DNA of 64,000 bases from Stenotrophomonas maltophilia (GTDB taxonomy: Bacteria; Pseudomonadota; Gammaproteobacteria; Xanthomonadales; Xanthomonadaceae), in NCBI RefSeq assembly GCF_006970445.1, contig NZ_CP033877.1:2302750-2366749 (forward strand), in the 5' to 3' direction. Position numbers and translations under genes: made by a program. The notes beneath the pieces were generated by a model. That model was not told the DNA's origin. It searched no databases and saw only the letters and a list, made by a program, of their open reading frames with translations. Below are positions 4,644-22,093 of the stretch, one piece after another (the first letter of the stretch is position 1; each line of letters starts with the position of its first letter).

Positions 4644-5174
4644 ATGGACGGCATCACCCCCATTCGCGGCCTGCTGGCAACGCTGGCCGTGGCCCTGCTG
4701 TCGGTTGGCGCGAGCGCCTCTGCCTCCGGTGCCCGCCAGGGCGTGAAGGCTCAACCGGGCGAAATCGTCCTGTTGCGCGATGTGTCCGCGCGGCCGGCCT
4801 ATCGCATGGCGCCGCCCGGCATGGCGCTGATCGCCGACCCGAAACCGCAGCGCGAGATCGCGGCGGCCCTCGGTGCCGGTGCCCCGGCAAACGGGATGGA
4901 CGAGCTGAGCGATGAGGACTACGCAGGCATGGGGGCAGGTCACGCAGCCACAGCCAACGCACCCGCAGGCACCACGGTCGAACGTGTGACGCAACAGGCA
5001 TTGGGCGGCACGCTCGGCCGCAGCGGTGAGGGCATGGTCGGCAGCAGTCTCGGTGGCGCCATGAGTGGGCCGCTCGGCGCGGTCGGTAACAGTACCCGCG
5101 GCATCGGCGATACCGTGCGCGGCGCCCTCGGCCAGTTCCCGCTGCAGGGCATGGCCCCGGCAGGTGGCAAGTGA
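4644..5174 (+). CDS. FapA-position exported protein of a Fap-like amyloid operon
   Basis: 176 residues with a signal peptide ending near ASAS. The mature protein has a short segment N-G-M-D-E-L-S-D-E-D-Y-A-G-M, like the ELSDEEL motifs in exported Fap proteins, and a Gly/Ala/Thr-rich second half (LGGTLGRSGEGMVGSSLGGAMSG). Its place as first gene of the operon corresponds to fapA, a proposed chaperone or assembly modulator. I could not confirm sequence homology to FapA, so the name rests on position. The GTG start of the next gene overlaps the stop (GTGA). Confidence 0.6.
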   Translation: MDGITPIRGLLATLAVALLSVGASASASGARQGVKAQPGEIVLLRDVSARPAYRMAPPGMALIADPKPQREIAAALGAGAPANGMDELSDEDYAGMGAGHAATANAPAGTTVERVTQQALGGTLGRSGEGMVGSSLGGAMSGPLGAVGNSTRGIGDTVRGALGQFPLQGMAPAGGK

Positions 5175-5788
5175 GGCGGGCGCACTGGCTGCTGCTGATC
5201 CTGTCTGCCACGCCGTTGATCGCGCAGGCCGATGACTACAGCGGCATGCTCGCCTACCTCGACGTTGCCCGCATCGACGGCCATGCACTGGCCGGCGTGA
5301 ACGGTGCCATCGCGGTGAACCAGGCGGCCGGCGACCTCAACCTGCAGACCAACCTGCGCGGCATCGCCACGGGCGAACATGCCGACGTATCGATCAGCAA
5401 CCGACAACTGCGCGGTGGCAACCGCGTGCTGGGTGCACCGCTGCACGCCACCGCCGTCATCGATGGCAAGGCGCTGGCCGGTGCGAGCGGCATCGCATCC
5501 ATCAACCAGGCCAGCGGCATCGCCAACACGACGCTCAACGTCGTCAGCGCGACGCTGGCCCGACAGGGCATACGCGAAACCGACGATACGGCCTTGGCCG
5601 CCGAGGGTTCCGCGTTGGCAGGGGGGCGGGACGACGCCGGTCGCGGCGTCGCGACGGGCACCCGCAGCGCCGGTGTCACCAGCACCGCGCTGCGGGGATT
5701 CGACGGGGTCCTGCAACTCAATCAGATCGCGGGCAGCGGCAACGACACGGCCAATGTGCTGGGCCTGGTCGTGCAGGACCGCCCGTGA
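5171..5788 (+). CDS. FapB-like minor amyloid subunit
   Basis: 205 residues starting at a GTG that overlaps the upstream stop. A signal peptide (LLLILSATPLIAQA) precedes a chain of imperfect repeats: VNQAAGDLNLQTN, INQASGIANTTLN and LNQIAGSGNDTAN, separated by Ala/Gly-rich linkers. N-Q-x-(A/S)-G-x-x-N-x-x-x-N is the core signature of Fap amyloid repeats. In Pseudomonas FapB is the nucleating minor subunit and precedes FapC, as here. The short repeats and absence of cysteine fit an exported fibre subunit. Confidence 0.68.
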   Translation: MRRAHWLLLILSATPLIAQADDYSGMLAYLDVARIDGHALAGVNGAIAVNQAAGDLNLQTNLRGIATGEHADVSISNRQLRGGNRVLGAPLHATAVIDGKALAGASGIASINQASGIANTTLNVVSATLARQGIRETDDTALAAEGSALAGGRDDAGRGVATGTRSAGVTSTALRGFDGVLQLNQIAGSGNDTANVLGLVVQDRP

Positions 5789-5830
5789 CAACCACCCAAC
5801 CGATGCACCACTGATGAGAGAGAGGGCACC

Positions 5831-7147
5831 ATGAAAGCGACCGTCAAACGGACCATGCTCGCCATGGCGATTGCCACTGCCTCGACCGCCGCTGCGGCCA
5901 ATGGCTGGGACAACCAGAACGCCAACGCGAACATCAACCACAACCATACCGTCAGCGAAACCCGCAACGACACCCACAACCACACTGACAACGACGTGCG
6001 CAACCGCACCGTCAACGTCAACGTGCAGAAGCACAGCACCATCCAGGCCGACGAGCGCAAGGAGAAGAACAACCACGGCGTCGACGTGAACCTGGAGAAG
6101 GACCTGCGGCTGGGTACCGACATCAATTTCTCCGGTGACCCGAACATCACCGGCGACATCGACCTCGATTCTGCGGCCATCGCCGTGATCGACAACCGCC
6201 AGTCGATCAGCAACAACGCCACCAGCAACAGCCTGGTCACCAACAGTGCCTCCATCGGTGACAGCGTGGGTGCAGGTGCATCGGGCAATCTCGGCTTCAA
6301 CGTGGTATCCGGCGACAACAACGCCCAGGACAATGCCGCGTCGCTGTCCGCTGCCGATGCGTCCTTCAGCTTCGGCATGGCCGACGCCGAGGTGTTCGTC
6401 AACCAGGCCGGCTTCGGCAACGCCACCATGAACTCCGGCGTCACCAATGCCGCAGGTCTCGGTGGCAATGCCTTCGGCGGTGCGTCAGGCAACATTGGCG
6501 TCAACATCGCTTCGGGCAACAACAACGAGCAGAAGAACGCGCTCGCGGCCTCGGTCGCGACCACCGCAGTGGCGCAGTCGAGCATCAGCTCCAACCAGGT
6601 CTCCACCGGCAACACGGTCAGCAACGCCGGCTTCGTGCAGTCCTACACCGATACCGTGCAGGTCGGCATGCATGGCGGCGTCAGCGGCCTGACCCTGGCC
6701 TATGGCGCGGGTACCTACCGCGGCACCGGCAATGCCTACCAGATGGCCAATTACTACCTGGATACGTGGAACGGCGAGCTGCCGCATCCGGGTGGCAACA
6801 GCACCGGCCACATCGACCTGGACAACGAGATCCAGAACGCCACGATGAACCCCAACCGGCCGGGGGTGGGCGGCCTGGGCTTCGATACGCGTGAAAGCGG
6901 CACCAGCCAGTTCGTCGAACTGGGCGTGGCCGACCTGTATGCCAGCCTGAGCGGCACGGTCAGCACCACGCGCTGGGTGAACGTCAACGCGACCAATACC
7001 TCGGCGTTGTCCGGCAGTGCCTTCTCCGGCGCCTCCGGCAACATCGGCGTGAACGTCGCTGCGGGCACCGGCAACCTGCAGGCCAACAGCCTGGCGCTTG
7101 CTGTGGCCCAGCCGAGCACGGGCGGTGGTGGCGGCAACGGCGAGTAA
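5831..7147 (+). CDS. FapC-like major amyloid subunit
   Basis: 438 residues. After a signal peptide (ending near AAAA) comes a hydrophilic Asn/His/Thr-rich region. At least three amyloid-type repeats follow: GNLGFNVVSGDNNAQDN, GNIGVNIASGNNNEQKN and GNIGVNVAAGTGNLQAN, ending in a Gly-rich tail. GVN-x-A(S)-G-x-x-N-x-Q-x-N is the hallmark of the Fap fibre core. The linkers between repeats are long, as in FapC. I found no cysteine, so the C-terminal CxC motif of Pseudomonas FapC is missing. A good Shine-Dalgarno (GAGAGAGGG) precedes the ATG. Two strong hairpins follow the gene. Confidence 0.75.
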   Translation: MKATVKRTMLAMAIATASTAAAANGWDNQNANANINHNHTVSETRNDTHNHTDNDVRNRTVNVNVQKHSTIQADERKEKNNHGVDVNLEKDLRLGTDINFSGDPNITGDIDLDSAAIAVIDNRQSISNNATSNSLVTNSASIGDSVGAGASGNLGFNVVSGDNNAQDNAASLSAADASFSFGMADAEVFVNQAGFGNATMNSGVTNAAGLGGNAFGGASGNIGVNIASGNNNEQKNALAASVATTAVAQSSISSNQVSTGNTVSNAGFVQSYTDTVQVGMHGGVSGLTLAYGAGTYRGTGNAYQMANYYLDTWNGELPHPGGNSTGHIDLDNEIQNATMNPNRPGVGGLGFDTRESGTSQFVELGVADLYASLSGTVSTTRWVNVNATNTSALSGSAFSGASGNIGVNVAAGTGNLQANSLALAVAQPSTGGGGGNGE

Positions 7148-7156
7148 GCGCACCAC

Positions 7157-7226
7157 CCCGGCCGTCCGCCAACGGCCGGGTTCCCGGGAGCCCCTGTTCC
7201 TCCTCCCCCTTGGGACAGGGGCTCCC
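7157..7226 (+). terminator. Tandem hairpins between the fapC-like and fapD-like genes
   Basis: Hairpin 1 has 9-bp arms CCCGGCCGT (7157-7165) and ACGGCCGGG (7172-7180). Hairpin 2 has 15-bp arms at 7186-7200 and 7212-7226 with one G-U pair and an 11-nt loop. Neither ends in a T-run, so they may act as partial terminators or as 3' protectors of the abundant subunit mRNA. Downstream genes start 20 nt later, so some read-through is expected. Confidence 0.6.
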
Positions 7227-7246
7227 TCCTGCTGCTGGAGAACGTG

Positions 7247-7951
7247 ATGATCGGCCACCGTCTCTCGATGTGCCTGCTGGCCTGCCTGCTTTTGCTGGGC
7301 GGTGCATCGGCGCGGGCGGGCGACGTCGGCTTCGCCGGCGTGCTGCCCAATGGCGCATTGCTGCAGCAGAAGGTGGAAAGCATGCAAGAACGGCGCTACC
7401 GCAATGTGGTGCGCCAGCACACCGATTACAGCTGCGGGGCGGCCGCACTGGCGACCATCCTGCGCCATGCCTACCACCTGGACACCGACGAGGCGACGGT
7501 GATCGAAGGGATGATGGGGGTCTCCGACGCGGCGCTGGTGGCCGAGCGTGGCTTTTCGCTGCTCGACATCAAGCGCTACGTGGAGTCGCTGGGCATGCGC
7601 GGGCGCGGCTATCGCATCGATGAAACGCGCCTGCGCACGCTTCGCGTTCCCGGCCTTGTGCTGATGGACGTGCGCGGCTTCCGCCACTTCGTGGTGCTCA
7701 AGCAGGTCCGCCAGGGGGTCGTCGAGGTGGCCGATCCGATCCTGGGCAACCGCAGCCTGGCACTGCCCGAGTTCCTGGCGGCCTGGCCATCACGTGCGGT
7801 GTTCGTGGTGATCGGCAGTGATTTCGATCGCAACACGGTCCTGCTGCAACCCAGCGAACGGCCCAGTGCCCGCGCGCTCTACGCGCGACAGGGGCCGATC
7901 ACCGATGCCGAACTGGTCGACTTCGGCTTCAGCCACGCCGACCTGTTCTGA
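7247..7951 (+). CDS. FapD-like C39-family cysteine peptidase
   Basis: 234 residues with an N-terminal signal peptide or anchor (LSMCLLACLLLLGGASARA). The catalytic signature is R-Q-H-T-D-Y-S-C-G-A-A-A-L-A, with oxyanion Gln57 and nucleophile Cys63. GFRHFVVL provides His147, followed by V-x-D-P-I-L-G with Asp163, in the order expected for C39 (papain-like) peptidases. FapD of Pseudomonas is the same type of enzyme and is needed for export or maturation of the fibre subunits. There is no ABC transporter part, unlike bacteriocin C39 exporters. I chose ATG 7247, with GGAG 6 nt upstream, over the in-frame GTG at 7244. Confidence 0.82.
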   Translation: MIGHRLSMCLLACLLLLGGASARAGDVGFAGVLPNGALLQQKVESMQERRYRNVVRQHTDYSCGAAALATILRHAYHLDTDEATVIEGMMGVSDAALVAERGFSLLDIKRYVESLGMRGRGYRIDETRLRTLRVPGLVLMDVRGFRHFVVLKQVRQGVVEVADPILGNRSLALPEFLAAWPSRAVFVVIGSDFDRNTVLLQPSERPSARALYARQGPITDAELVDFGFSHADLF

Positions 7952-7964
7952 AGGAGGTTCCGCC

Positions 7965-8714
7965 ATGTTCCGCCACCGTCTGTTGATGGTCCTGCTGCTG
8001 GCCTGCCCCGCCCTGCCCCTGCAGGCGGCGGACGCGGCGCCCGGGCGCGGCCTGAAGGAAATCCCGGATCCCGAACTGAACCTGATGCGGGGCCGCTACA
8101 CCGTAGGCGGCAATACCGTGGCCTGGTTCGGGGTGACGATGGTCTCGCAGTGGCAGGCGGGCAACGGAACGGTGCTGCAGGGGGCGTTGACCCTGGGCAT
8201 GGATTTCCGCGGCGGCGGCAGCCCGAAACTGAGCTTCCAGCCCAGCGTGCACGTGACCACCTCAGATGCACCGCTGCCGGACACACAGGGTCGCCATATC
8301 GACAGCACCGGCCTGGCCAACGCCAGCGGCCTGGTGCAGAGCGTGCAGGTGGCCGGCGACGGCAACGCCGCCCGCAATGCGACCACGCTGGTGGTGCGCA
8401 ACGGTGCGGTGCCGGCCCCGTCGGGTGACGGTGCCCATTCGCTCAGCGCACAGGCCGCAGGCATCTCGGCCTCTGCGGTACTCGACGGCAACCAGGCACG
8501 CCTGCAGCTGCAGGTGGATGGCCAGGGCCTGGTCCAGCAATGGATACGCAACGGCAGCGTCGGCCAGGGCATCGCCCTGAACGGTGACGGCCAGATCGCC
8601 AGCAACCAGCTGCGGCTGGAGCTGGTGCGGGATACCGCGGGCGGCAACCTGCCGTTGAGCCAGAACGTGGCCCAGGCGATTGCGATGAACCGCGGCATGG
8701 GGCCGGGCCGCTAG
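7965..8714 (+). CDS. FapE-like exported protein
   Basis: 249 residues with a strong AAGGAGG ribosome site. A signal peptide (LLMVLLLACPALPLQA) is followed by IPDPELNLMRGRYTVGGNTVAWFGVTM. The E-L-x-x-M-R-G-R-Y box resembles the motif of FapE-type proteins and could be the point recognised by the neighbouring C39 peptidase (inference). The rest is rich in Asn, Gln, Ala and Val with motifs such as NASGLVQSVQVAGDGNAARN, so it may itself join the fibre. It sits between fapD- and fapF-like genes, as fapE does. Confidence 0.65.
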   Translation: MFRHRLLMVLLLACPALPLQAADAAPGRGLKEIPDPELNLMRGRYTVGGNTVAWFGVTMVSQWQAGNGTVLQGALTLGMDFRGGGSPKLSFQPSVHVTTSDAPLPDTQGRHIDSTGLANASGLVQSVQVAGDGNAARNATTLVVRNGAVPAPSGDGAHSLSAQAAGISASAVLDGNQARLQLQVDGQGLVQQWIRNGSVGQGIALNGDGQIASNQLRLELVRDTAGGNLPLSQNVAQAIAMNRGMGPGR

Positions 8715-8763
8715 CACCACGGCACGGCGTTGGGGGAAGCGTTCCACAACGCAGGACACGAAC

Positions 8764-10074
8764 ATGCACACCTTGATGAGGATCACCCCGTTGGCGCTGG
8801 CGGCGCTGGCGGGCACCGCCTTCGCCGCACCACCGGCGGCGGATGATGGCGCCGACGTGCAGGCACTGGCCAACCAGTTGGAGCAGCTCAAATCCAACTA
8901 CGCGCAGGAAGTGCGGCGGCTGCGCGAACTGGACATGCAGGTGCAGGCGATGCAGGCGCGGTTGAGCGGGAAGGTCGGCCCGATGGCGCCGGCTACGGCT
9001 ACGGCTTTGGCCCCGGCTACGGCAGGCGAGCAAGGCTCGACCCTACAGGCCTCGCCGAGCGGCGAAGGCTATGCCAGCAGCGCCGCCGAGGCGCAGCGGG
9101 CAAAACAGGAATCGCGGCGCAGCGTGGATGATGTGAAACAACAGCAGTCGGCGCTGTTCTCGCGCCGCTTCACCGTCGAGAACAGCCTCACCTACGCCCG
9201 CTATGACCGCAAGCAGCTCACCCTCAATGGCTTCCTGGCACTGGACGCGATCTTCCTCGGCAACATCGCCATCGAGAACGTCGAATCCGATTCGCTCACC
9301 TACAACCTGGCCGCCCGCTGGGGCGTCAGCCCGAACCTGACCCTCAATCTGGACGTGCCGTACCTGGCGCGGCGCACGGTCTACCAGAAAGGCGGCGCCG
9401 GCGGCGCGGCGGCGGCGATCGCGCAGGAAGAAACCAATGGCAACGGCCTGGGCGATATCGGCCTGAGCGCGAACTACCGCTTGTTCGGCGAACGCGGCTG
9501 GCGCCCGGAGACCGTGCTCACTGCCGGAGTGACCGCGCCCACCGGGCGCGCACCTTACGGCCTGGACTGGAAGGTGATCGAGCGCGACGACGATGACTAC
9601 ATCCGCTTCGCCGTGCCCAAGGAACAGCCCACCGGCAATGGCGTGTGGCAGGCCAACGTGGGGCTGTCGATGGTCAAGACCGCCGATCCGGCGATCCTGT
9701 TCGCCAACCTCGGCTACGTGCATTCATTCCCGCGTGGCTTCAGTGACATCGACAGCAATCCCGATACGGTCAATCCGGGTGACGTGAAGCTGGGCGGCTC
9801 GGTCTACTTCGGCGCCGGCGTGGCCTTTGCGTTCAACGAACGCACCAGCCTCAGCCTGTCCTTCAGCGATCGCATCAGCACACGTGCCTCCACCCGCTTC
9901 CAGGGCGGCAAATGGATGAAGGTGATCGGCAGCGACGCCAATGCGGCGTCACTGAATCTGGGTGTGACCTATGCGCTCAACCAGCACACCACGCTGGTGA
10001 CGCTGCTCGGCATCGGGCTCACCCCGGATGCACCGGACTTCACGCTGGCGTTCAAGATCCCTTACATGCTCTGA
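8764..10074 (+). CDS. FapF-like outer-membrane amyloid secretion pore
   Basis: 436 residues: a signal peptide, then a predicted coiled coil (about 28-70, DVQALANQLEQLKSNYAQEVRRLRELDMQ split by heptads). An Ala/Thr/Pro linker follows, then a C-terminal beta barrel from about residue 135 to the end, built of alternating strands (FTVENSLTYARYDRKQLTLNGFLALDAIF). This matches FapF, a trimeric barrel gated by an N-terminal coiled-coil plug. The linker DNA contains short GGCTAC tandem repeats. The gene ends the operon; a GC-rich hairpin follows at 10087-10114. Confidence 0.72.
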   Translation: MHTLMRITPLALAALAGTAFAAPPAADDGADVQALANQLEQLKSNYAQEVRRLRELDMQVQAMQARLSGKVGPMAPATATALAPATAGEQGSTLQASPSGEGYASSAAEAQRAKQESRRSVDDVKQQQSALFSRRFTVENSLTYARYDRKQLTLNGFLALDAIFLGNIAIENVESDSLTYNLAARWGVSPNLTLNLDVPYLARRTVYQKGGAGGAAAAIAQEETNGNGLGDIGLSANYRLFGERGWRPETVLTAGVTAPTGRAPYGLDWKVIERDDDDYIRFAVPKEQPTGNGVWQANVGLSMVKTADPAILFANLGYVHSFPRGFSDIDSNPDTVNPGDVKLGGSVYFGAGVAFAFNERTSLSLSFSDRISTRASTRFQGGKWMKVIGSDANAASLNLGVTYALNQHTTLVTLLGIGLTPDAPDFTLAFKIPYML

Positions 10075-10374: not shown

Positions 10375-10665
10375 ATGGCATTTCCAACCGCGGTAAACGA
10401 CCAGATCACCGATTCGGTCACCCAGGCCAACACCAAGGTGCTGGGTGACGCGCCCGCCGTGGCGGTGGGCAATCTGTACCAGGCCACCGCACAGGCGCTG
10501 GCCAACGCCGCCCACAACGCCACCAATGCGCAGCAGCAGTCCTACGTGACAGCGCAGTCGGCCACCACCATGGGCGTGGCCACGCTGTACTCGGTCGATA
10601 CCGCCACCACCGCGGTGGCAAGCAGGGAAATCCTCAGCACCCGCGTTCGCGGCCTGGGTTCCTGA
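10375..10665 (+). CDS. RebB-family R-body subunit (copy 1)
   Basis: 96 residues. The core MAFPTAVNDQITDSVTQAN, then AQALANAAHNATNAQQQ and TTMGVATLYS, is the signature of RebB (killing-trait) proteins, which polymerise into coiled R-body ribbons in the cytoplasm. It is nearly identical to the next paralogue but has a longer C-terminus (STRVRGLGS). It has its own AGGAG ribosome site and no signal peptide. First gene of the R-body cluster. Confidence 0.88.
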   Translation: MAFPTAVNDQITDSVTQANTKVLGDAPAVAVGNLYQATAQALANAAHNATNAQQQSYVTAQSATTMGVATLYSVDTATTAVASREILSTRVRGLGS

Positions 10666-10708
10666 TCCGTCGTTCCATAGCTGACCCGCCAACCCCAAGG
10701 AGTTCGAC

Positions 10709-10978
10709 ATGGCATTCCCGACCGCTGTAAACGACCAGATCACCGATTCGGTCACCCAGGCCAACACCAAAGTGCTGGGCGACGCGCCCGCCGTGGCCAT
10801 GGGCAATCTGTACCAGGCCACCGCACAGGCCCTGGCCAATGCCGCCCACAACGCCACCAACGCACAGCAGCAGTCCTACGTGACGGCGCAGGCGGCCACC
10901 ACCATGGGTGTCGCCACGCTGTACTCGATCGACACCGCCACCACCGGCGTGGCCACCAAGCAGATCCTCGGCGCGTGA
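10709..10978 (+). CDS. RebB-family R-body subunit (copy 2)
   Basis: 89 residues differing from copy 1 at about seven positions in the shared part, mostly near the C-terminus (ATKQILGA against ASREILST). This is a recent tandem duplication. AAGGAG lies 6 nt upstream of the start. In characterised R-bodies several small Reb proteins are needed for assembly and for pH-driven extension; which copy is structural here is unknown. Confidence 0.88.
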   Translation: MAFPTAVNDQITDSVTQANTKVLGDAPAVAMGNLYQATAQALANAAHNATNAQQQSYVTAQAATTMGVATLYSIDTATTGVATKQILGA

Positions 10979-11004
10979 TGCGCCGGCAGGCAAGGAGCTG
11001 AGCC

Positions 11005-11271
11005 ATGGCATTTCCCACGGCCGTCAACGACCAGATCACCGACTCGGTCAGCCAGGCCAACCTGCAGGTGCTGGGCGTGGCGCCTGCCACGGCAATGGGC
11101 ACGCTGTACCAGGCCACCGCACAGGCGCTGGCCAATGCCGCCCACAACGCGACGCTCGCCCAGCAGCAGATGTATGTCACGGCGCAGGCCGCGACCACGA
11201 TGGGCGTCGCGCTGCTCTACGCCGTCGATACCGGCGCCACCGGCGCCGCCACCCGGAAGATTCTCGGCTGA
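11005..11271 (+). CDS. RebB-family R-body subunit (copy 3)
   Basis: 88 residues with the same MAFPTAVNDQITDSV start and ALANAAHNATLAQQQMYVTAQAATTMGV core, more diverged in the linker (LQVLGVAPATAMG). AAGGAG precedes the ATG. Same orientation, 26 nt after copy 2. Confidence 0.88.
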   Translation: MAFPTAVNDQITDSVSQANLQVLGVAPATAMGTLYQATAQALANAAHNATLAQQQMYVTAQAATTMGVALLYAVDTGATGAATRKILG

Positions 11272-11331
11272 TCCCATTGAGTGCCGGCAATCTCCGTTCC
11301 TGTAGTGCTGTCCACCCTAGGAGCTTCCACC

Positions 11332-11604
11332 ATGGCATTTCCCACCGCCGTCAACAGCCAGATCACCGATTCGGTCTCGCAGGTCAACACCAAGGTGCTT
11401 GGTGATGCGCCCGCCATCGCAATGGGCAACCTGTTCGTGGCCACCAGCCAGGCGCTGTCCAACGCCGCGCACAACGCCACCAACAACCAGCAGCAGTCCT
11501 ACGTGACCATGCAGGCGTCGACCACCCAGGGGGTGTCCACGCTGTATGCGATCGACACCGCCTCCAACGGCGTGGCCACCCGCGAAATCCTGGGTCTGCG
11601 CTGA
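11332..11604 (+). CDS. RebB-family R-body subunit (copy 4)
   Basis: 90 residues starting MAFPTAVNSQITDSVSQVN with ALSNAAHNATNNQQQSYV. I chose the ATG at 11332 because it aligns with the other copies and has AGGAG upstream. It is the most diverged of the four canonical copies (TTQGVSTLYAIDTASNGVATREILGLR). Confidence 0.87.
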   Translation: MAFPTAVNSQITDSVSQVNTKVLGDAPAIAMGNLFVATSQALSNAAHNATNNQQQSYVTMQASTTQGVSTLYAIDTASNGVATREILGLR

Positions 11605-11674
11605 CGTGTCGGCCCGGCGTGACGCCAACCACCGCGCCCCCGCTCAGGGCGGCGTCACGTCGGGCCCCTGATCG

Positions 11675-11911
11675 ATGGCCGCATCGCCCGCCACCGGCTA
11701 CCTGCTGGCAGCCACCAGCGCCGGATCCGGTGTGGCGATCGCCCTCGCCCCCTCGTTCGCGATGTCCGCCACGTACCTGGCGATGGCCGACAGCCTCGCC
11801 CTGGCAATGCAGAACGCGGTGGCCAACCAGCAACGCGGCCAGGTGACCGCCGGCGCAAGCCTGGCCCAGGTCCTGGCCCTGATCATCCAGAAGGGAGCCG
11901 TTCCGTCATGA
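11675..11911 (+). CDS. Short Reb-like protein
   Basis: 78 residues, mostly Ala, Leu, Val and Ser. The segment YLAMADSLALAMQNAVANQQRGQVTAGAS is recognisably the Reb core (A-x-x-N-A-x-x-N-Q-Q), but the conserved N-terminal TAVNDQITDSV block is absent. Two hydrophobic stretches could be helices. No good ribosome site precedes the ATG, so the start is uncertain. It overlaps the next gene by 4 nt (ATGA), which supports a real coupled gene. Confidence 0.7.
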   Translation: MAASPATGYLLAATSAGSGVAIALAPSFAMSATYLAMADSLALAMQNAVANQQRGQVTAGASLAQVLALIIQKGAVPS

Positions 11912-12492
11912 GCAGTGAGAACACCGTCAACAGCCAGATCGTCGACAGCGTCAGCGCCGCCTCGACCCTGCTGGTGGCCCAGGGGCCGGCGCAGTCCTTC
12001 AGCATGCTGGACATGGTGATGCTTGAGACGCTGGGCACCGCCATGCACAACGCCGTCGCGCGCCAGCAGGGTGCGGGCATGGTCAGCAACGCAGCGGTCA
12101 CCGCGACCTGCGCGAAGATGATCAATGCCCCCTGGCCGGTGCCGCCGCCCGCTCCGGAACCCCCTCCGCCGCCACCGCCGCAGGTCATTCCCCTGCCTGG
12201 CCCGGTGCCGGCGCCGCCTTCGCCTGCGGCGGTGATCGCCGCGGCCACCGCAGAAGGAAAGACCGCCATCAGCGTCCTGCAGGCACAGACCCACGGTGCC
12301 ACTGCCGACGCTGCGGCCGCTACCAGCAGCCTGCATGCACTCGAAACGCTTGCAGGCATTGCGGCAGCGCCCGCGCCCGGTCCTGCGCCCGACCCCGCGT
12401 CCGGTCCGGATCCGGACGCGGGTCCCGCCCAGGATCCCGCGCCAGACTCCCCTTCCCCTTCCCCGGCAGACGACGCTGACGCCGGGGCCTGA
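11908..12492 (+). CDS. Reb-like protein with long proline-rich C-terminal tail
   Basis: 194 residues. The first 80 are Reb-like: NTVNSQIVDSVSAAS, later ETLGTAMHNAVARQQGAGMVS. A run of prolines follows (about 85-120), then an Ala-rich helix and a low-complexity Pro/Asp/Ala/Ser tail to the end. Such a tail is unusual for RebB proteins and could be an extended spacer or surface of the ribbon. Translationally coupled to the upstream gene. Confidence 0.72.
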   Translation: MSSENTVNSQIVDSVSAASTLLVAQGPAQSFSMLDMVMLETLGTAMHNAVARQQGAGMVSNAAVTATCAKMINAPWPVPPPAPEPPPPPPPQVIPLPGPVPAPPSPAAVIAAATAEGKTAISVLQAQTHGATADAAAATSSLHALETLAGIAAAPAPGPAPDPASGPDPDAGPAQDPAPDSPSPSPADDADAGA

Positions 12493-12539
12493 CAGACTGC
12501 AGGCCGCCTGCGGCCCCACCCGCCCATCAAGGAGCCCGT

Positions 12540-12887
12540 ATGGACCCGAGCAACGTCAACGCCCAGGTCATCGATGTGATCAACCAGGTGCAGACGGCCA
12601 CCATGTCTGCGACCGTGGTGAAGACCAGTGGTGCCGGCAAGGCCTACCAGTCGGTGGCCCAGTCTGCGGCGATCGCCGTGCAGGATGCAGCTGACGCCCT
12701 GCGCAACGTCTCAACCATCGCGACCACCGCGGCCGGCGTGGCCATGGCCCAGTACCTGGCGACGGGGGACGAAAAGTATGCGAGGGTGCTCACGCAAGCG
12801 CAGAACATGATGCAGGGGGCCACCGACGACTTCAACCGGGTCGGCAATGCCGCTGCGACCGTCCTCAAGGAATTTCCGGCCCAGTGA
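12540..12887 (+). CDS. Divergent Reb-like protein
   Basis: 115 residues beginning MDPSNVNAQVIDVINQVQTA, which matches the position and pattern of the Reb N-terminal block (V-N-x-Q-I-x-D-x-V-x-Q). The central part SVAQSAAIAVQDAADALRN is an Ala-rich amphipathic helix, like the Reb core. The C-terminal 40 residues are unlike RebB. AAGGAG precedes the start. Probably a minor R-body component. Confidence 0.68.
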   Translation: MDPSNVNAQVIDVINQVQTATMSATVVKTSGAGKAYQSVAQSAAIAVQDAADALRNVSTIATTAAGVAMAQYLATGDEKYARVLTQAQNMMQGATDDFNRVGNAAATVLKEFPAQ

Positions 12888-12907
12888 GGCCGCCAGGAGA
12901 GCCACGC

Positions 12908-13987
12908 ATGAGCGTTTTCATTGCCGGTCGTTCCATCCCCCAGGCCAATCAGATCAGTCAATCCTGCAGGCATGTCCTTCAGTTCATCGACGGCGGCGAG
13001 CACTGGCTGAAGTGGGCCATGGAGTCGCATGAGCACCGTTATGCCTTCTCCGACGAGGGCACGATGCTCGATGGGGTGCAGCAGGGTCTGCACGGTTCGC
13101 GCATGACATGGTTGTCGCGCCTCGGGTTGCAGGTCGGCCCGATCAAGCTGCTCAGCCTCGGCAACAGCGATCTCAGTGCCTTGCGCCAGGTGGAGTTTGA
13201 AGACGAGACACGACTTTCGCACAGCGAGGCGCAGGGAGTCCTGGCACGACACCGGCTGCTGACCAACACCGAACTCGGCGCCTCACGCGCGTTCCTGGCC
13301 TCGATCGGCGCGGCCGACGCACCCCTGCTGCAGCAGCTGGATTTCCGTGAATCGGTGGCGCTCCACCAGCTGGCCGGTGAGCTGGGAATGTCCGCCGCTG
13401 GGCGCGACGACCTGGTCGACGCTGCCAGCTTCGCGCTGTTGCACGCGCGCAGGCCCATCGAGTTTGCCGACTACTTCCGCTTCTACCAGCGGGTGAGCGC
13501 AGGGGGCGGCAGTCGCGAGCATCGGCTGACACGTGCAACCCGTGCGTTGCAACAGGTGCTGCCGATCCTGTTCGGCTTCCTGGACGGGCCGCAGCTGCCA
13601 CAGTTGCCGTCGCCGGAGCAGGTACGCGAGGCGATTGCCGCAAGCCTGGCCGCGAACCGGCAGATCGGCTATGCCCGCATCTCGCTGGCCGCCCAGCAGA
13701 TGGCGGCCTGCTTCGACAACGATCCCGACCTGCTTCAGGATGACAGCCGGCTGCGCGAGGCCGCGCGGTGGCAGCTGCGCGATGCACAGGAATTCCTCAA
13801 CGAACATCCGGTTTCCCGTGGCCGTCTCGGCCAGGATGGTGCCAGCGTGCAGTTCCCGATCGATGGCTCCAAAGCACAGGCGCTGGTGCAGGTGGAGGAC
13901 AATGTGATCACCCTGCAGGACTACCGCCGAACCCGCGGCTACCTGGGCGAAGAAGCGCAGGTGGGCTACCAGGCGGATGCGGTGTGA
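12908..13987 (+). CDS. Uncharacterised R-body-locus protein
   Basis: 359 residues, cytoplasmic, with no motif I recognise. It begins MSVFIAGRSIPQANQISQSC and has many helical segments rich in Arg, Gln, Leu and Ala; two aromatic patches (DYFRFYQRV, VTLQDYRR-like) stand out. It lies 20 nt behind the last Reb-like gene, in the same orientation, with AGGAG upstream. The context suggests assembly, regulation or toxin delivery linked to R-bodies, but this is inference only. Its stop overlaps a GTG start of the next gene. Confidence 0.6.
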   Translation: MSVFIAGRSIPQANQISQSCRHVLQFIDGGEHWLKWAMESHEHRYAFSDEGTMLDGVQQGLHGSRMTWLSRLGLQVGPIKLLSLGNSDLSALRQVEFEDETRLSHSEAQGVLARHRLLTNTELGASRAFLASIGAADAPLLQQLDFRESVALHQLAGELGMSAAGRDDLVDAASFALLHARRPIEFADYFRFYQRVSAGGGSREHRLTRATRALQQVLPILFGFLDGPQLPQLPSPEQVREAIAASLAANRQIGYARISLAAQQMAACFDNDPDLLQDDSRLREAARWQLRDAQEFLNEHPVSRGRLGQDGASVQFPIDGSKAQALVQVEDNVITLQDYRRTRGYLGEEAQVGYQADAV

Positions 13988-14430
13988 ACCCGGCTCCGGC
14001 GCCAGGTGGCGACGGCGTGCAGGCAGCAACGGAGGCTCTCGCGTCGGCAGCCGGTGCGGCCGTTGCTGCCGGACGCCTGGCGGCCCGGCAACAGGCGCAG
14101 AAGATCCTGGCCGATGCCCAGGCGGCATTGCGCCATATCCTGGGGGAGCGCAGCGACGGTGCTCCCCCCTCATCCCCAGCAGGAGCACCGACGATGACCT
14201 TCCCGACCCCGCTTCCCGGCAAGCCCACTCCCGCCCATCCGGCGGGCAAAACCCCGATGGAAATCGCACAGGAACTGGCGGACGCCGCGATGGCCGCCAG
14301 TGAAGAAGGCATCCGCGCCGCGATGGAGGTTTCGCAACGCGCGGTCGAGGCCGCCGCCGAGGCGGCACGCCGTGCTGACGAAGCCGCCGAGCAGGCCGTG
14401 CAGCGCGCTGCTGAAGCAAACGCACGCTAA
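13984..14430 (+). CDS. Ala-rich helical protein of the R-body locus
   Basis: 148 residues if the GTG at 13984, overlapping the upstream TGA (GTGA), is the start. An internal ATG at 14194 with AGGAG upstream would give a 78-residue protein (MTFPTPLPGKPTPAHP). The first half is Ala-rich (AATEALASAAGAAVAAGRLA). The second half has a proline linker and then a long heptad-like Ala/Glu/Arg helix (AVEAAAEAARRADEAAEQA), which is probably a coiled coil. Last gene before a strong terminator. Confidence 0.6.
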   Translation: MNPAPAPGGDGVQAATEALASAAGAAVAAGRLAARQQAQKILADAQAALRHILGERSDGAPPSSPAGAPTMTFPTPLPGKPTPAHPAGKTPMEIAQELADAAMAASEEGIRAAMEVSQRAVEAAAEAARRADEAAEQAVQRAAEANAR

Positions 14431-14450
14431 CGCCGGATCTTCCGTTCCAG

Positions 14451-14491
14451 CGCCCCGGGCAGGCCCGCGCCTGCACCGGGGCGTTTGTTTT
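14451..14491 (+). terminator. Rho-independent terminator of the R-body operon
   Basis: Arms CGCCCCGG (14451-14458) and CCGGGGCG (14476-14483) enclose an inner stem GCAGGC / GCCTGC with a CCGC loop, followed by TTTGTTTT. The T-run overlaps the stop codon of the convergent regulator gene, so it ends the R-body transcript just before collision. Confidence 0.88.
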
Positions 14492-15983
14492 ACTGATCCG
14501 GCGTTCGCCGGTAGCTGCGCGGACTGACCCCCACCGCGCGCCGGAAACTCTTCTCGAAGTGGCTCAGGTCACCGAAGCCGACCTGCAGTGCGACATCAGT
14601 AATGCGCAGGCGTTGCCCATCCCGCAGCAGCTGCTTGGCATGCTCGATACGCAGTTGCTGCAGCAGCAGCTTGAAGGTCGTGCCCAGCTCGCTGCGGAAC
14701 AGGAAGCCCAGGTGCGACTGGCTCACATGGGCCTGACGGGCAAGGTCGCCCAGCGTGAGCGGCTCCGCGGCATGGTCCTTCAGATAGGCCAGGGCGCGTT
14801 TCAGGCCGTCGTGCAGGCCTTCCTGTGCCGTTGCTGCCGCTGTGGCGACATCGCGCCCGGTGTCCTGCGTTGCCGGGGCGTCCATGCCGGCCTCGGCCCC
14901 TGCGTCGGCGCCAACGGAATTGTCGGCGGCCATCAACCCGGGGGCATGCCTCAGCACATCCTCACGGCGGATGCTCCGGCCGCCGGTCATCACCGCCAGG
15001 CGAACCACCACGCGCTCCATTTCCAGAAGGTTGCCCGGCCAATCATGGCTGCGCAGCGTCTGCAGTACGTCCTCGCTGATTACCTGCGGATTGAAGCCGT
15101 GCATCTGCAGCGAACGCGCAACCAGTGCGCCGATGTCCTCGGTGCGCTCGCGCAGCGGCGGAACATCCGCCGTCAGGAACTCGAGGCCGGCCAGCAGCGC
15201 CCGCGAGAACAACCGGTCGCGCACGCGTTGCTCCAGGTCGGCGCTGGTGGATGCGATCACCCGGATGGCCTGTGCCGCACCCGCTTCGCCCGATGCAGGC
15301 TGCAGGCCACGGATGCAATGCGAGAGCTGCCCCTGCAGCGCCACCGGCAACTCGTCGACTTCGTGGAAGTACAGGGTGCCGCCACGCGCGTGACGGAACC
15401 AGTCCGAGGGTTCCTCCTGGGGATGGGCGCAGTTCACCTCGATGAAGGGCCCCCGCCGCAGCGGACTGCCGCTGTGCAGTGCGGCGGCCAGTTCCATCTT
15501 CTCGGTACCGAACTCGCCGCGCAGCAGCACAGGCAGTGAACTGGCGGCAGCGCGCTCGATGAACTCTTCCAGCCGCTTCAGCGCATCGCAGGTACCGACC
15601 AGCAGCAACGGCCGGCTCAGCGCCTGCTCGGCCCACGCCTGTGCTTCGTATCGCTTGATCAGGTGCGCGCAGCGATGCGCGAATGCTTCGCCCAGTGCCA
15701 GCGCGCTGCTGTCCAGACGCCCCGCCTGCGTTTCCAGCTGCAGCTCGCCCAGCACTTCACCGGCATAGCGGATCGGCAGACGCTGGCTGGCGCCGGTCCC
15801 ATCGTCCGCGTCCGCCACCGGGGTCCCGTCCGGATGGCCTGCACCGGAACCGCGCAGATGGACGCGGCCGCCACGCACTGCATGGTGTTGCGAAAACTCC
15901 TTCACGAACGCGCCCAACAGGTCGGGCAAGGACCGGTGGGGTCGGTAGGCGCGCTGCAACATCTCACTGACTTGCCTGTGCAT
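14490..15983 (-). CDS. Regulator fusing a degenerate NtrC-type AAA+ domain to an AraC DNA-binding domain
   Basis: 497 residues from the ATG at 15983, which has AGGGGAG upstream; longer in-frame starts lack a ribosome site. Residues 1-120 resemble a GAF-like sensor. Residues 125-350 align with a sigma-54 activator AAA+ domain, but the ATPase motifs are lost: Walker A is GEFGTEKM (156-163) instead of GETGTGKE, the GAFTGA loop is absent, and Walker B reads GGTLYFHEVDE. DWPGNLLEMERVV retains the sensor-II shape. The last 100 residues are a normal AraC/XylS double helix-turn-helix (LTLGDLARQAHVSQSHLGFLF). It cannot be an ordinary sigma-54 activator. It is convergent with the R-body operon and a likely regulator of it. 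Confidence 0.85.
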   Translation of the reverse strand: MHRQVSEMLQRAYRPHRSLPDLLGAFVKEFSQHHAVRGGRVHLRGSGAGHPDGTPVADADDGTGASQRLPIRYAGEVLGELQLETQAGRLDSSALALGEAFAHRCAHLIKRYEAQAWAEQALSRPLLLVGTCDALKRLEEFIERAAASSLPVLLRGEFGTEKMELAAALHSGSPLRRGPFIEVNCAHPQEEPSDWFRHARGGTLYFHEVDELPVALQGQLSHCIRGLQPASGEAGAAQAIRVIASTSADLEQRVRDRLFSRALLAGLEFLTADVPPLRERTEDIGALVARSLQMHGFNPQVISEDVLQTLRSHDWPGNLLEMERVVVRLAVMTGGRSIRREDVLRHAPGLMAADNSVGADAGAEAGMDAPATQDTGRDVATAAATAQEGLHDGLKRALAYLKDHAAEPLTLGDLARQAHVSQSHLGFLFRSELGTTFKLLLQQLRIEHAKQLLRDGQRLRITDVALQVGFGDLSHFEKSFRRAVGVSPRSYRRTPDQ

Positions 15984-16399
15984 TGAAACTCCCCTTTCGA
16001 ATGGCAACCCGCTGCCGTTGCAGCGGGCGATCGCGCAATGGGTACCGTGCGGCTTCACTGCGTGATGCTGCGACGCCCCCGCCGCGCCTCGCGCCAGCCA
16101 CAGCACACGCAGGTGAACGTGCACACTGTCCGCCCCCATGCCCCCAGGGGGTTGCCGTCGGTAGGTCGACGAAGCGGACGTCGGACGGATCCCGGTTCCC
16201 CGCGCGCAGACACGCGCATTCGCCTCCGGGATTATCGAAGGCGAGTTTCATTAGAATCGTGATGATAATCACGTGAATATCCGGGATTATCTTTCCCTGC
16301 GATGCAGCACAGGGTGTGGCGAACTGCATGTGCTGCGCGCAACCTGCCCTTCGCCGATCTGCGGCATGATGGGCGCCTTGCCATGATCGGGAACCTGCC
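15984..16399. other. 416-bp divergent intergenic region with repeats
   Basis: This gap lies between the degenerate regulator and the dehydrogenase gene. It holds a GC hairpin (CCCGCTGC-CGTT-GCAGCGGG, near 16007-16027) just upstream of the regulator. It also holds two direct copies of CCGGGATTATC (16224-16234 and 16279-16289) flanking a perfect inverted repeat CGTGAT-GATA-ATCACG (16256-16271). The AT-rich surroundings suggest promoters and an operator. No convincing ORF. Confidence 0.5.
16224..16289. promoter_or_regulatory. Candidate operator: CGTGAT/ATCACG dyad flanked by CCGGGATTATC repeats
   Basis: A 16-bp perfect dyad sits between two identical 11-bp direct repeats that start 55 bp apart. 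This is the most AT-rich part of the gap. The regulator that binds it is unknown; GATAAT-like elements give a weak resemblance to Fur sites. Confidence 0.4.
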
Positions 16400-17385: not shown

Positions 17386-18525
17386 ATGGGTCTGGTACAG
17401 GCGGTGAAGGGTGCGGTCGGTGGTGTGCTGGCCGACCAGTGGAAGGACTTCTACACCGTGCCGACAGGCCTGCCCTCGACGGCGGCCCTGTTCGCGGCGG
17501 TGCCGCAGGGCACCAACGCCGGCCGCGGCTCCAACACCAGCGGCTCGTCCAACATCATCACCGACGGCTCGAAGATCATCGTGCCCGAAGGCTACGGCCT
17601 GCTGCTGTTCCAGGACGGCGCGATCACCGCGTTCGTCGCCGAACCGGGTGGCTACGAGTGGCGTTCGGACGATCTGAACTCGCAGTCGATCTTCGCCGGC
17701 GACGGCCTGGTCAGCACCTTCATCAAGCAGAGCTGGGAACGCTTCAAGTTCGGCGGCCAGCCGGGCTCGCAGCAGGCGGCCTATTTCGTCTCGCTGAAGG
17801 AACTGCCGGACAACCGCTTCGGTACCCAGTCGGAAATCTACTGGGACGACGGCTTCCTCAACACCCAGGTCGGCGCGGTCACGCGTGGCTCGTACACGCT
17901 GAAGATCGTCGACCCGATCCTGTTCGTGAAGAACTTCGTGCCGGCCAGCTACCTGCAGCCGGGCCAGGTGTTCGACTTCACCGACCTGGACAACGCCGCC
18001 GCCAGCCAGCTGTTCAATGAAGTGGTCGGTTCGCTGGCCCCGGCCTTCAGCCTGTATACCAACGACCCGGGCAAGGGCAACCGCATCACCAAGCTGCAGC
18101 AGGACTCGCTGGGCTTTGCACAGAGCCTGTCGGCCGCCGTCGAGCAGGGCTACCAGTGGAAGTCCGACCGTGGCCTGGCCATCGTCAAGACCGCCATTGT
18201 CTCGATCGAGTACGACGCCAACACGCGCGAGCTGCTGAAGACCGTGCAGCGCGCCGATGCGCTGTCCGGTTCGCGCGGCAATTCCAACCTGCAGGCGAGC
18301 GTCGCCCAGGGCATCCAGTCGGCCGGCGAGAATGGCGGTGCGGCCGGCCTGGTTGGTGTCGGCATGGCCTCGGGCATGTTCGGTGTCGGCGGCATGCAGC
18401 AGCCGGTCACGCCCGCGGCCGACGACCCGGTGGCCAAGCTGAAGAAGGCCAAGGAAATGCTGGACCTGGGCCTGATCACCCAGGGCGACTATGACGCCCT
18501 GAAAGCCAAGGCACTGGGCCTGTAA
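17386..18525 (+). CDS. SPFH/band-7 domain protein with C-terminal SHOCT motif
   Basis: 379 residues. I chose ATG 17386, with AGGGAG 6 nt upstream, over an upstream TTG. The N-terminal 230 residues form an SPFH-like (virion-core-type) domain with MGLVQAVKGAVGGVLADQWKDF. A central helical region with SIEYDANTRELLKTVQRAD, a Gly/Ala segment and a C-terminal SHOCT motif (DPVAKLKKAKEMLDLGLITQGDYDALK) follow. SHOCT helices often mediate oligomerisation. A hairpin GGCAGGC-ATGGT-GCCTGCC (17345-17363) is just upstream. It forms a module with the next two genes. Confidence 0.82.
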   Translation: MGLVQAVKGAVGGVLADQWKDFYTVPTGLPSTAALFAAVPQGTNAGRGSNTSGSSNIITDGSKIIVPEGYGLLLFQDGAITAFVAEPGGYEWRSDDLNSQSIFAGDGLVSTFIKQSWERFKFGGQPGSQQAAYFVSLKELPDNRFGTQSEIYWDDGFLNTQVGAVTRGSYTLKIVDPILFVKNFVPASYLQPGQVFDFTDLDNAAASQLFNEVVGSLAPAFSLYTNDPGKGNRITKLQQDSLGFAQSLSAAVEQGYQWKSDRGLAIVKTAIVSIEYDANTRELLKTVQRADALSGSRGNSNLQASVAQGIQSAGENGGAAGLVGVGMASGMFGVGGMQQPVTPAADDPVAKLKKAKEMLDLGLITQGDYDALKAKALGL

Positions 18526-20428: not shown

Positions 20429-22093
20429 ATGCGCTACACACGTCGTGATTTTCTTGCCACCACCGCCAGCGCTTCATTGGCGTCTCTGGTCGCACCCGGG
20501 GCCTGGGCCAGCGGCGCTGCACCAGCCGACAAGGCAGTGCAGGCACGCTACCACCGCTACAACGTCACCAGCCCCGAAGGCCAGCGCATGCTGGCCAGCT
20601 ACGCACGCGGCATCAAGGCCATGCTGGCATTGCCGGCAGACGATCCACGCAACTGGTTCCGCAACGCCTTCGTGCACCTGATGGACTGCCCGCATGGCAA
20701 CTGGTGGTTCTATGTCTGGCACCGTGGGTATGTCGGCTACTTCGAACAGACCATCCGTACGCTCAGCGGTGATCCGCAGTTCGCCATGCCCTACTGGGAC
20801 TGGACCGAGCTGCCACGCATTCCCCCGGCGATGTTCGACGGCGTGCTGACGCCCACCGACAGCGCCTATGCGCCGTATACGCGCAACCTGGCGGTCTTCA
20901 CCCGGTTCATGCGGCCGGCATTGCAGCGGTACTGGAGCACGCTGGATGCAGGCCAGCGCGAGCAACTCAAGTTCCGCGGCTATCTCACCGCGGACGACGT
21001 CTGGAACGATGTGACCGGCTACAGCGTTGCGGAAAAGACCGGCATCTCGGGGAATGCAGCCTATGCGATCACCTGCGGTGCCCGCTATCTGTGGCGCGAG
21101 AATCCCGGCTTCGATGCAAAGACCGCTTCGGCCGTGTCTCCCGATACCATTCACGCGGGGCTGTCGCCGGTCGAGTTCTACAACGACGATGTGAGTCGCA
21201 GCTTCACCAGCTCGCGCACGGCCTCGCACGTGGTGCAACCGGACGGCGCCACGAAATTCTCGGTGCTCGAAGGCTTCCCGCACAACAAGGTGCACAACTG
21301 CATCGGTGGCGTCGGCGCGGTCGACCCCGGCCCCTACGGCAACATGACCAACTTCCTGTCGCCACTCGATCCGATCTTCTACCTGCACCACGCCAACATG
21401 GACCGCCTGTGGGACGTGTGGAACCAGCTGCAGCAATCCCGCGGCAAGCCGATCATGCCCGTCAACGTCGACCAGCGGCGTCAGTTCATGAACGAACCGT
21501 TCCGGTTCTTCGTTGATGCACAGGGCAAGCCGGTTGGCGCGCGTCCGGCCAGTGCGTTCTTCTCCACCACGGCCTTCGACTATGACTACGTCTACGGGGG
21601 CCGCAACGACCTGCTGAAGGCGGCCGCGCTGCCGGCAGCGGCTGGCGCGGTGCGGCTGGTGCGCGGTACGCGCGCCGATGGTGCGGTGCGCGTGGCCGTG
21701 CCCAATGAAGCGGTGCGCGCGCACCTGGCCACGTCGGCCCCGCGACAGTTGATTGCCGAAGTGACCCTGGAGCGACCGCGCGGCTTGAACAATACGCGTG
21801 AGTTCGACGTGCTGATCAACGCACCGGCCGGCACCGCGTCCGTATCGGCCGACAGCCCGTACTACGCCGGCACCGTATCGTTCTTCGGGCCGACCATGGC
21901 CGGGATGGACCACAGCCATCCCACCACGTTCGCGGTACCACTGCCGCAGAAACTGGGGGCCCTGCAGGCACTCACTGCTGCCGATGGTGGGACGGCCACG
22001 CTGGAGATCCGCCTGGTCGCATCGTCCGGCCAGGCACCGCAGACGTTCCCGGTGCTCGACGCCGCCATCCTGGTGGCACCACTGCAGCCGTGA
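20429..22093 (+). CDS. Tat-exported tyrosinase (copper monooxygenase)
   Basis: 554 residues. The N-terminus MRYTRRDFLATTASASLASL is a clear twin-arginine signal. Copper site A is formed by His83, His89 and His98 (HLMDCPHGNWWFYVWHRG). Copper site B has His285, His289 and His320/321 (HNKVHN...FYLHHANMDRLWD). PYWDW is also typical of the tyrosinase/hemocyanin fold. It should oxidise phenols to quinones outside the cytoplasm, with melanin-type products possible. The C-terminal 170 residues (from about 390) form a second domain with beta strands, as in larger bacterial tyrosinases. GGGGAAGG precedes the start. Confidence 0.88.
   Translation: MRYTRRDFLATTASASLASLVAPGAWASGAAPADKAVQARYHRYNVTSPEGQRMLASYARGIKAMLALPADDPRNWFRNAFVHLMDCPHGNWWFYVWHRGYVGYFEQTIRTLSGDPQFAMPYWDWTELPRIPPAMFDGVLTPTDSAYAPYTRNLAVFTRFMRPALQRYWSTLDAGQREQLKFRGYLTADDVWNDVTGYSVAEKTGISGNAAYAITCGARYLWRENPGFDAKTASAVSPDTIHAGLSPVEFYNDDVSRSFTSSRTASHVVQPDGATKFSVLEGFPHNKVHNCIGGVGAVDPGPYGNMTNFLSPLDPIFYLHHANMDRLWDVWNQLQQSRGKPIMPVNVDQRRQFMNEPFRFFVDAQGKPVGARPASAFFSTTAFDYDYVYGGRNDLLKAAALPAAAGAVRLVRGTRADGAVRVAVPNEAVRAHLATSAPRQLIAEVTLERPRGLNNTREFDVLINAPAGTASVSADSPYYAGTVSFFGPTMAGMDHSHPTTFAVPLPQKLGALQALTAADGGTATLEIRLVASSGQAPQTFPVLDAAILVAPLQP

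Follow-up and report, generated by a model that had tools for sequence, protein, structure and literature searches.

Layout of the reb cassette and its published relatives

The window analysed here, 64,000 nucleotides of the Stenotrophomonas maltophilia genome (contig NZ_CP033877.1, positions 2,302,750 to 2,366,749 of the forward strand), carries a reb (R-body) cassette of nine open reading frames (ORFs) between positions 10375 and 14430, all on the plus strand and placed as in a first-pass annotation of this DNA. They comprise four RebB-type genes (R1 to R4), three more divergent Reb-like genes (S1 to S3), a gene for a 359-amino-acid (aa) protein, here called HP1.1, and an Ala-rich ninth gene, AlaP (Table 1). 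Judged from its genes and their relatives, the locus is likely to be a Group 1 reb cassette with an HP1.1-AlaP pair that is separable from the ribbon.

Six products match PF11747 (RebB, curated cut-off 24 bits), and they are the only six matches in the whole genome (4.55 Mb, one contig). This agrees with the annotated R-body locus, in which some seven Reb-like proteins are joined by two additional genes, the 115-aa S3 being the weak member. The annotation had also described a gene set in one orientation ending at a strong terminator, and both ORF positions and hairpin folding bear this out: none of 200 shuffles folded equally well. A consensus terminator scan by itself gave 2 terminator-like sites against 3.3 in shuffles. 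AGGAG or GGAG stands 5' of R1 to R4, S2, S3 and HP1.1; we saw no clear Shine-Dalgarno (SD)-like site at S1 or at the GTG start of AlaP. Among 91 genomes of the genus, PF11747 occurs in 16, and since all 16 have exactly six matches, the six-match pattern is more than chance.

Most of this arrangement is known. Raymann 2013 (PMC3583457) describes a Group 1 reb synteny with two distant Reb proteins, HP1.4 (60-80 aa) and HP1.3 (about 170 aa), and two proteins linked to reb, HP1.2 (110-120 aa) and HP1.1 (about 360 aa), and gives an Azospirillum brasilense plasmid as an example. In size, type and location, the 78-, 194-, 115- and 359-aa genes of the window fit HP1.4, HP1.3, HP1.2 and HP1.1. Homologues in the window order lie on the A. 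brasilense Sp7 plasmid; the correspondence is drawn from sizes, order and the example species. Likewise, S1, S2 and S3 match three secondary groups that Dorr 2026 distinguishes from the primary Reb, a short one (S1), one with a Pro-rich tail (S2) and S3; HP1.1 was set aside there as not Reb-like (PMC13430693, available text). The locus is a complete, ordinary member of the published Group 1 type, known here from its genes alone.

The number of subunits is therefore not unusual, as seven reb genes are reported from Vibrio fischeri and nine, in two regions, from Marinomonas mediterranea (PMC3583457), which overturns the earlier statement that known loci have fewer. The annotation's two novel accessory genes are likewise reduced to one. 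The 359-aa gene fits HP1.1 of 2013; the Ala-rich gene goes unmentioned in the available text of Raymann 2013 (PMC3583457), including by word search, and we found no description of it among the titles and abstracts of our literature search. AlaP may be distinct from HP1.5 of that paper, which is described as a relative of HP1.3.

R1 to R4 would be the ribbon subunits, and S1 to S3 minor Reb-like parts, likely serving ends, nucleation or assembly. Conserved RebB motifs are present in the Reb proteins of the window, and Pro makes up 18% of S2. For S3, Pfam gave nothing above cut-off, and alignment to the Reb profile with hhalign reached an E value of 3.5e-4 but a probability of 37%. With a combined Reb profile, three of ten S3 homologues scored above the best of 2000 shuffles (7.8 bits), the window S3 (4.5 bits) falling below it. 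The protein is nonetheless strongly conserved, with a mean column identity of 86% over 10 loci. Separately, R2 matches the PHROG family phrog_32040 (function unknown) with an E value of 2.5e-21, and tblastn matched no phage record.

We further compared the RebB copies by position. Across 16 loci with four copies each, a selected set, the best match of a protein in another genus came from its own position in 55 of 64 cases, and all nine misses were swaps between R1 and R2. R3 and R4 thus represent old separate classes, and R1/R2 a near-duplicate pair; at one locus, L103, the third RebB is closest to R2. From this pattern, R1 and R2 can probably replace each other, and R3 and R4 are probably both needed for the ribbon. 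A similar pattern is on record in Azorhizobium caulinodans, whose operon has four reb genes, two of them essential and two mutually replaceable (PMC5527310, available text). In the available text of Dorr 2026, by contrast, copies of the same group are treated as multiple copies (PMC13430693), and the position classes are new as far as our literature search reaches.

Table 1. Features of the cassette and of related loci; loci have L identifiers, and positions without one are those of the window.
Feature	Position	Strand	Remarks
R1, putative RebB-type ribbon subunit, 96 aa, short extra C-terminal tail	10375-10665	+	PF11747, 102.6 bits
R2, RebB-type subunit, 89 aa, near-duplicate of R1	10709-10978	+	PF11747, 108.3 bits
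R3, RebB-type subunit, separate class, 88 aa	11005-11271	+	PF11747, 96.2 bits
R4, RebB-type subunit, separate class, 90 aa	11332-11604	+	PF11747, 106.5 bits
S1, short divergent Reb, 78 aa	11675-11911	+	PF11747, 38.6 bits; fits HP1.4 / group S1
S2, divergent Reb, Pro-rich C-terminal tail, 194 aa	11908-12492	+	PF11747, 62.8 bits; fits HP1.3 / group S2
S3, distant Reb-like, 115 aa	12540-12887	+	weak profile support; fits HP1.2 / group S3
HP1.1, 359 aa, no known domain	12908-13987	+	high-confidence predicted fold (model pLDDT 89.1, pTM 0.86)
AlaP (name coined here), Ala-rich, 148 aa	13984-14430	+	GTG start overlapping HP1.1 stop; both halves constrained
Probable second, internal AlaP start, 78-aa product	14194-14430	+	conserved ATG with AGGAG/GGAG
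Hairpin, intrinsic terminator	14449-14485	+	between cassette and convergent regulator; -33.9 kcal/mol, z -4.9
AAA+ (sigma-54-type) domain and AraC-type helix-turn-helix, probable regulator	14490-16139	-	Pfam; true start probably further in
HP1.1-Ala-rich fusions with no full cassette around	L015 10001-11368; L017 10001-11494; L084 9353-10747; L086 8819-10144; L087 9179-10471; L108 8527-9966
Extra genes between HP1.1/AlaP and regulator	L018 12173-15318; L085 9062-12536; L088 6614-8371; L097 9977-13496; L030 2551-4689; L103 5950-8316

HP1.1 with and without ribbon genes

HP1.1 matched nothing in Pfam or NCBIfam up to an E value of 1, and nothing in PADLOC or PHROGs up to 0.01. Its C-terminal domain, compared in fold with BECR, RelE-ParE and CdiA-CT toxins, may be weakly toxin-like in its arrangement. 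The first-pass annotation had named chaperone, cap, membrane anchor and cargo as possible roles of the accessory proteins. Neither HP1.1 nor AlaP has a transmembrane-like stretch (highest 19-residue hydropathy 1.12 and 1.10, respectively), which disfavours that role. The nearest relatives of the window HP1.1 are at other S. maltophilia loci.

The annotation also held that absence of the accessory genes from other reb loci would speak against it, and proposed looking for homologues there. For the 359-aa gene we found the opposite of absence, as none of the 16 genomes of the genus with reb genes lacks it, and it also stands near reb loci in other genera and classes. The gene order of the window recurs in other Stenotrophomonas and in Xanthomonas, Azospirillum, Eleftheria and Rhodospirillales-type loci. 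Among 26 HP1.1 loci in named genomes, 20 have R1 to R4, S1 to S3 and HP1.1, three (L024, L027, L030) are cut by contig starts, one (L029) has R4 and HP1.1 only, and two (L015, L017) have HP1.1 alone; full cassettes also occur in E. terrae, A. brasilense, two Stenotrophomonas loci (L085, L088), L102 and L103. On a wider scale HP1.1 is rare: we found it in 20 of 395 genomes of the family (19 without one chance match), in 4 of 297 of the order of the Rhodospirillales metagenome-assembled genome, and in 3 of 398 of the phylum, one of these being a chance match.

HP1.1 also occurs where PF11747 genes are missing. It is found in 18 of the 91 genus genomes, namely all 16 that bear reb plus G226 and G281 (G identifiers denote genomes), and the latter two, like G111 in the wider family, have no PF11747 and no S3 match. 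The difference between 18 and 16 genomes, together with these three, argues that the pair is separable from the ribbon. It also contradicts the statement of Raymann 2013, in its available text, that HP1.1 is restricted to Reb-harbouring taxa (PMC3583457). Two further genomes carry HP1.1 apart from a reb locus: G230 has a second copy about 85 kb from an intact cassette, and in G386 the gene lies 2.1 Mb from three PF11747 genes. Those three belong to a different, second kind of reb locus (L107, 6191-9371).

In all five of these genomes the HP1.1 in question (in G230 the second copy) continues into an Ala-rich tail, giving proteins of 430-497 aa. In G317 the cassette is reduced to R4 plus a 479-aa HP1.1-AlaP fusion; G159 has R4 and an unfused HP1.1, with neighbours like those in G317, and neither has an S3 match. 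The tails at L086 and L087 are Ala-rich, their homology to AlaP not being proven.

How often this happened can be read from a tree of the HP1.1 core columns, with the tail left out and with the state of rows that have P identifiers only (proteins without gene context) called from the protein itself. The fused state takes five changes on it, at least four of them forced by well-supported branches. A single fused clade was rejected by the approximately unbiased (AU) test in comparisons set up after a first tree had been viewed (p 0.0025 with 11 of 40 rows; p 3.4e-6 with 10 of 39 rows). Parsimony cannot separate gain from loss. That the ribbon was lost and the partner kept is suggested by L015, L108 and L089, which lie at the full-cassette sites of relatives, with neighbours judged by eye; at L015 (in G281) the fused gene sits between fapF and a 16400-type gene, where the window has its full cassette. 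The solo frames (430-497 aa) are free of stops, share 46-63% identity with one another, and have ratios of nonsynonymous to synonymous substitution (dN/dS) below 1. By these measures solo HP1.1 is still constrained, though more loosely or with faster evolution. Its recurrent survival without the ribbon, fused to an Ala-rich tail, is new as far as our literature search reaches.

AlaP, its internal start and the genes behind it

Ala makes up 31% of AlaP. Since the gene overlaps HP1.1 in the window and is fused to it elsewhere, we propose that the two products act as a pair. Sequence search found 15 relatives of AlaP, and a gene of 25-38% Ala lies 3' of HP1.1 in the Xanthomonas loci examined and in L031, L085, L088, L096 and L097; in Azospirillum and Eleftheria the Ala-rich gene stands free behind HP1.1.

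AlaP probably has a second, internal start at 14194. In all 23 homologues that overlap HP1.1 the corresponding ATG is preceded by AGGAG (21) or GGAG (2); these loci are related and so not independent, and L031, L096 and L097 fall outside the comparison, having no open frame that overlaps HP1.1. As a control, SD-like sites stand at 7 of 88 internal ATGs in 11 other genes of the window. Among the AlaP homologues, viewed over the first four internal ATGs per gene, a weak SD-like site precedes one further ATG in each of L009 and L088. In Stenotrophomonas both halves of AlaP are constrained (dN/dS 0.16-0.33 upstream and 0.07-0.21 downstream of the internal start), for which reason we propose two products, of 148 and 78 aa. 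In Xanthomonas the upstream half is weakly constrained (0.40-0.87) and the downstream half has 0.22-0.57. Within the reach of our literature search, both this ninth gene and the second start that it probably has are new.

A convergent AAA+/AraC gene, probably the regulator of the cassette, lies behind HP1.1 in 27 of 31 loci surveyed there, again a selected set. Sigma-54 activators have an intact Walker A motif and a GAFTGA loop. All eight homologues of the regulator are degenerate in these motifs, with G[ED]FGT[ED] at the expected Walker A site and no GAFTGA in an alignment inspected by eye, although the domain matches Pfam. The predicted control differs from that in A. caulinodans, where reb expression is governed by PraR and a RebR of Crp-Fnr type (PMC5527310, available text).

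The gap between HP1.1 and the regulator holds only AlaP in the window and nine other S. maltophilia-type loci (483-505 bp; 10 of 31 loci), and only an Ala-rich gene in L031 and L096. Extra genes, some of them enzyme-like, are found there in Xanthomonas, E. terrae, L085, L088, L030 and L103. Grouped by BLAST, with Pfam run on single members, they include a group of 13 with one Rv2525c-like, glycoside-hydrolase-like member, a group of 10 (380-594 aa; four members run against Pfam gave no match), four NUDIX genes and a group of two (712-788 aa). At L085 the extra genes encode HNH/PtuB-like and DUF4135 proteins. Such genes fit the suggestion of species-specific toxins in Raymann 2013 (PMC3583457, available text).

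Directly upstream of the cassette are six fap-like functional-amyloid genes, resembling fapA to fapF (4644-10074, plus strand), which match NCBIfam models, all below the curated cut-offs; a sigma-54-type activator gene (2892-4211, minus strand) diverges from them. The fapF-to-reb neighbourhood recurs at several Stenotrophomonas loci, not at L016 or in Xanthomonas. Downstream lie genes for an SPFH/Band 7 protein (17386-18525) and a weakly tyrosinase-like protein (20537-22093), both on the plus strand.

A possible role for the HP1.1-AlaP pair

HP1.1 and AlaP would form a functional pair that serves as payload, or as payload adaptor; the ribbon would carry it and, on unrolling, expose it or push it out. 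This reading draws on the additional genes that follow the pair elsewhere and on a metagenome protein, P0104, a relative of HP1.1 that has an eCIS_core domain at its N-terminus (PF13699, 30.4 bits, cut-off 22). A non-ribbon partner beside Reb subunits has a precedent in Pseudomonas aeruginosa PA14, whose R-body-associated protein RapA co-localises with the ribbon; RapA and HP1.1 are likened by description only, and the PA14 locus differs in having rebD/rebP with RapA, RcgA and the sigma factor FecI2 (PMC8322103, available text). We put forward a separable payload or adaptor module as a tentative reading, with odds somewhat short of even. The fuller version, a dedicated payload module of HP1.1, a dual-start AlaP and a variable slot able to take extra enzyme-like genes, repeatedly kept in fused form after ribbon loss because it is useful alone, is more tentative still.

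Several observations weigh against a payload role. No fold match was found for the predicted structure of HP1.1, and P0104 is one distant HP1.1, a single protein of unknown context. The cassette does not need the extra genes, since the window, nine other S. maltophilia-type loci, L031 and L096 have none, and these genes may be bystanders. Published R-body loci of Group 2 lack HP1.1, which is thus no general requirement for R-bodies. There are few solo copies, and their faster or looser evolution is what remnants might show: dN/dS is 0.42-0.59 in four solo pairs, rough values given their high divergence (dS 0.43-1.18), against 0.22-0.34 in three Stenotrophomonas pairs and 0.28 in one Xanthomonas pair from intact loci.

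These ratios would suit a second explanation, in which HP1.1 and AlaP are ribbon assembly factors (scaffold, chaperone or end cap) and the solo fusions are remnants. HP1.1 is present in every reb-bearing genome of the genus and every uncut cassette examined, as such a factor should be, and three of the five fused loci with DNA are away from any cassette. Yet the solo frames remain stop-free and under constraint, and fusion to an Ala-rich tail recurred, which decay does not predict; we regard assembly factors as a somewhat unlikely explanation. It is improbable that HP1.1-AlaP shields the cell from an R-body or payload, be it the cell's own or that of a neighbour, and outlasts the loss of the weapon in the manner of an orphan immunity gene. 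Its retention without ribbon genes in G226, G281 and G111, beside an intact cassette in G230 and beside a different reb locus in G386 would accord with protection; its rarity in the family would not, no known immunity fold was found, and the proposed place of action of R-bodies is the interior of eukaryotic cells (PMC3583457, available text), where bacterial immunity would be of little use. More improbable again is that no classical R-bodies arise from the cassette here and that its Reb proteins form another polymer or lie silent. We found no literature, by title and abstract start, on R-bodies seen in Stenotrophomonas, and many species await confirmed physical presence according to Dorr 2026 (PMC13430693, available text), but all subunit classes are kept and constrained (R1 dN/dS 0.075; R4 dN 0 versus L011), with the RebB motifs conserved.

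Which cargo R-bodies deliver is a long-standing question, for which Raymann 2013 already named the HP proteins as candidates, either in assembly regulation or as toxin (PMC3583457, available text). The position classes predict which ribbon subunits are redundant. That HP1.1 has repeatedly persisted and become fused in the absence of the ribbon amounts to a natural experiment that separates the ribbon from its partner, and the solo genes allow the partner's role to be tested alone. If the payload reading is true, following the module would reveal either the R-body toxin long sought or the component responsible for loading it.

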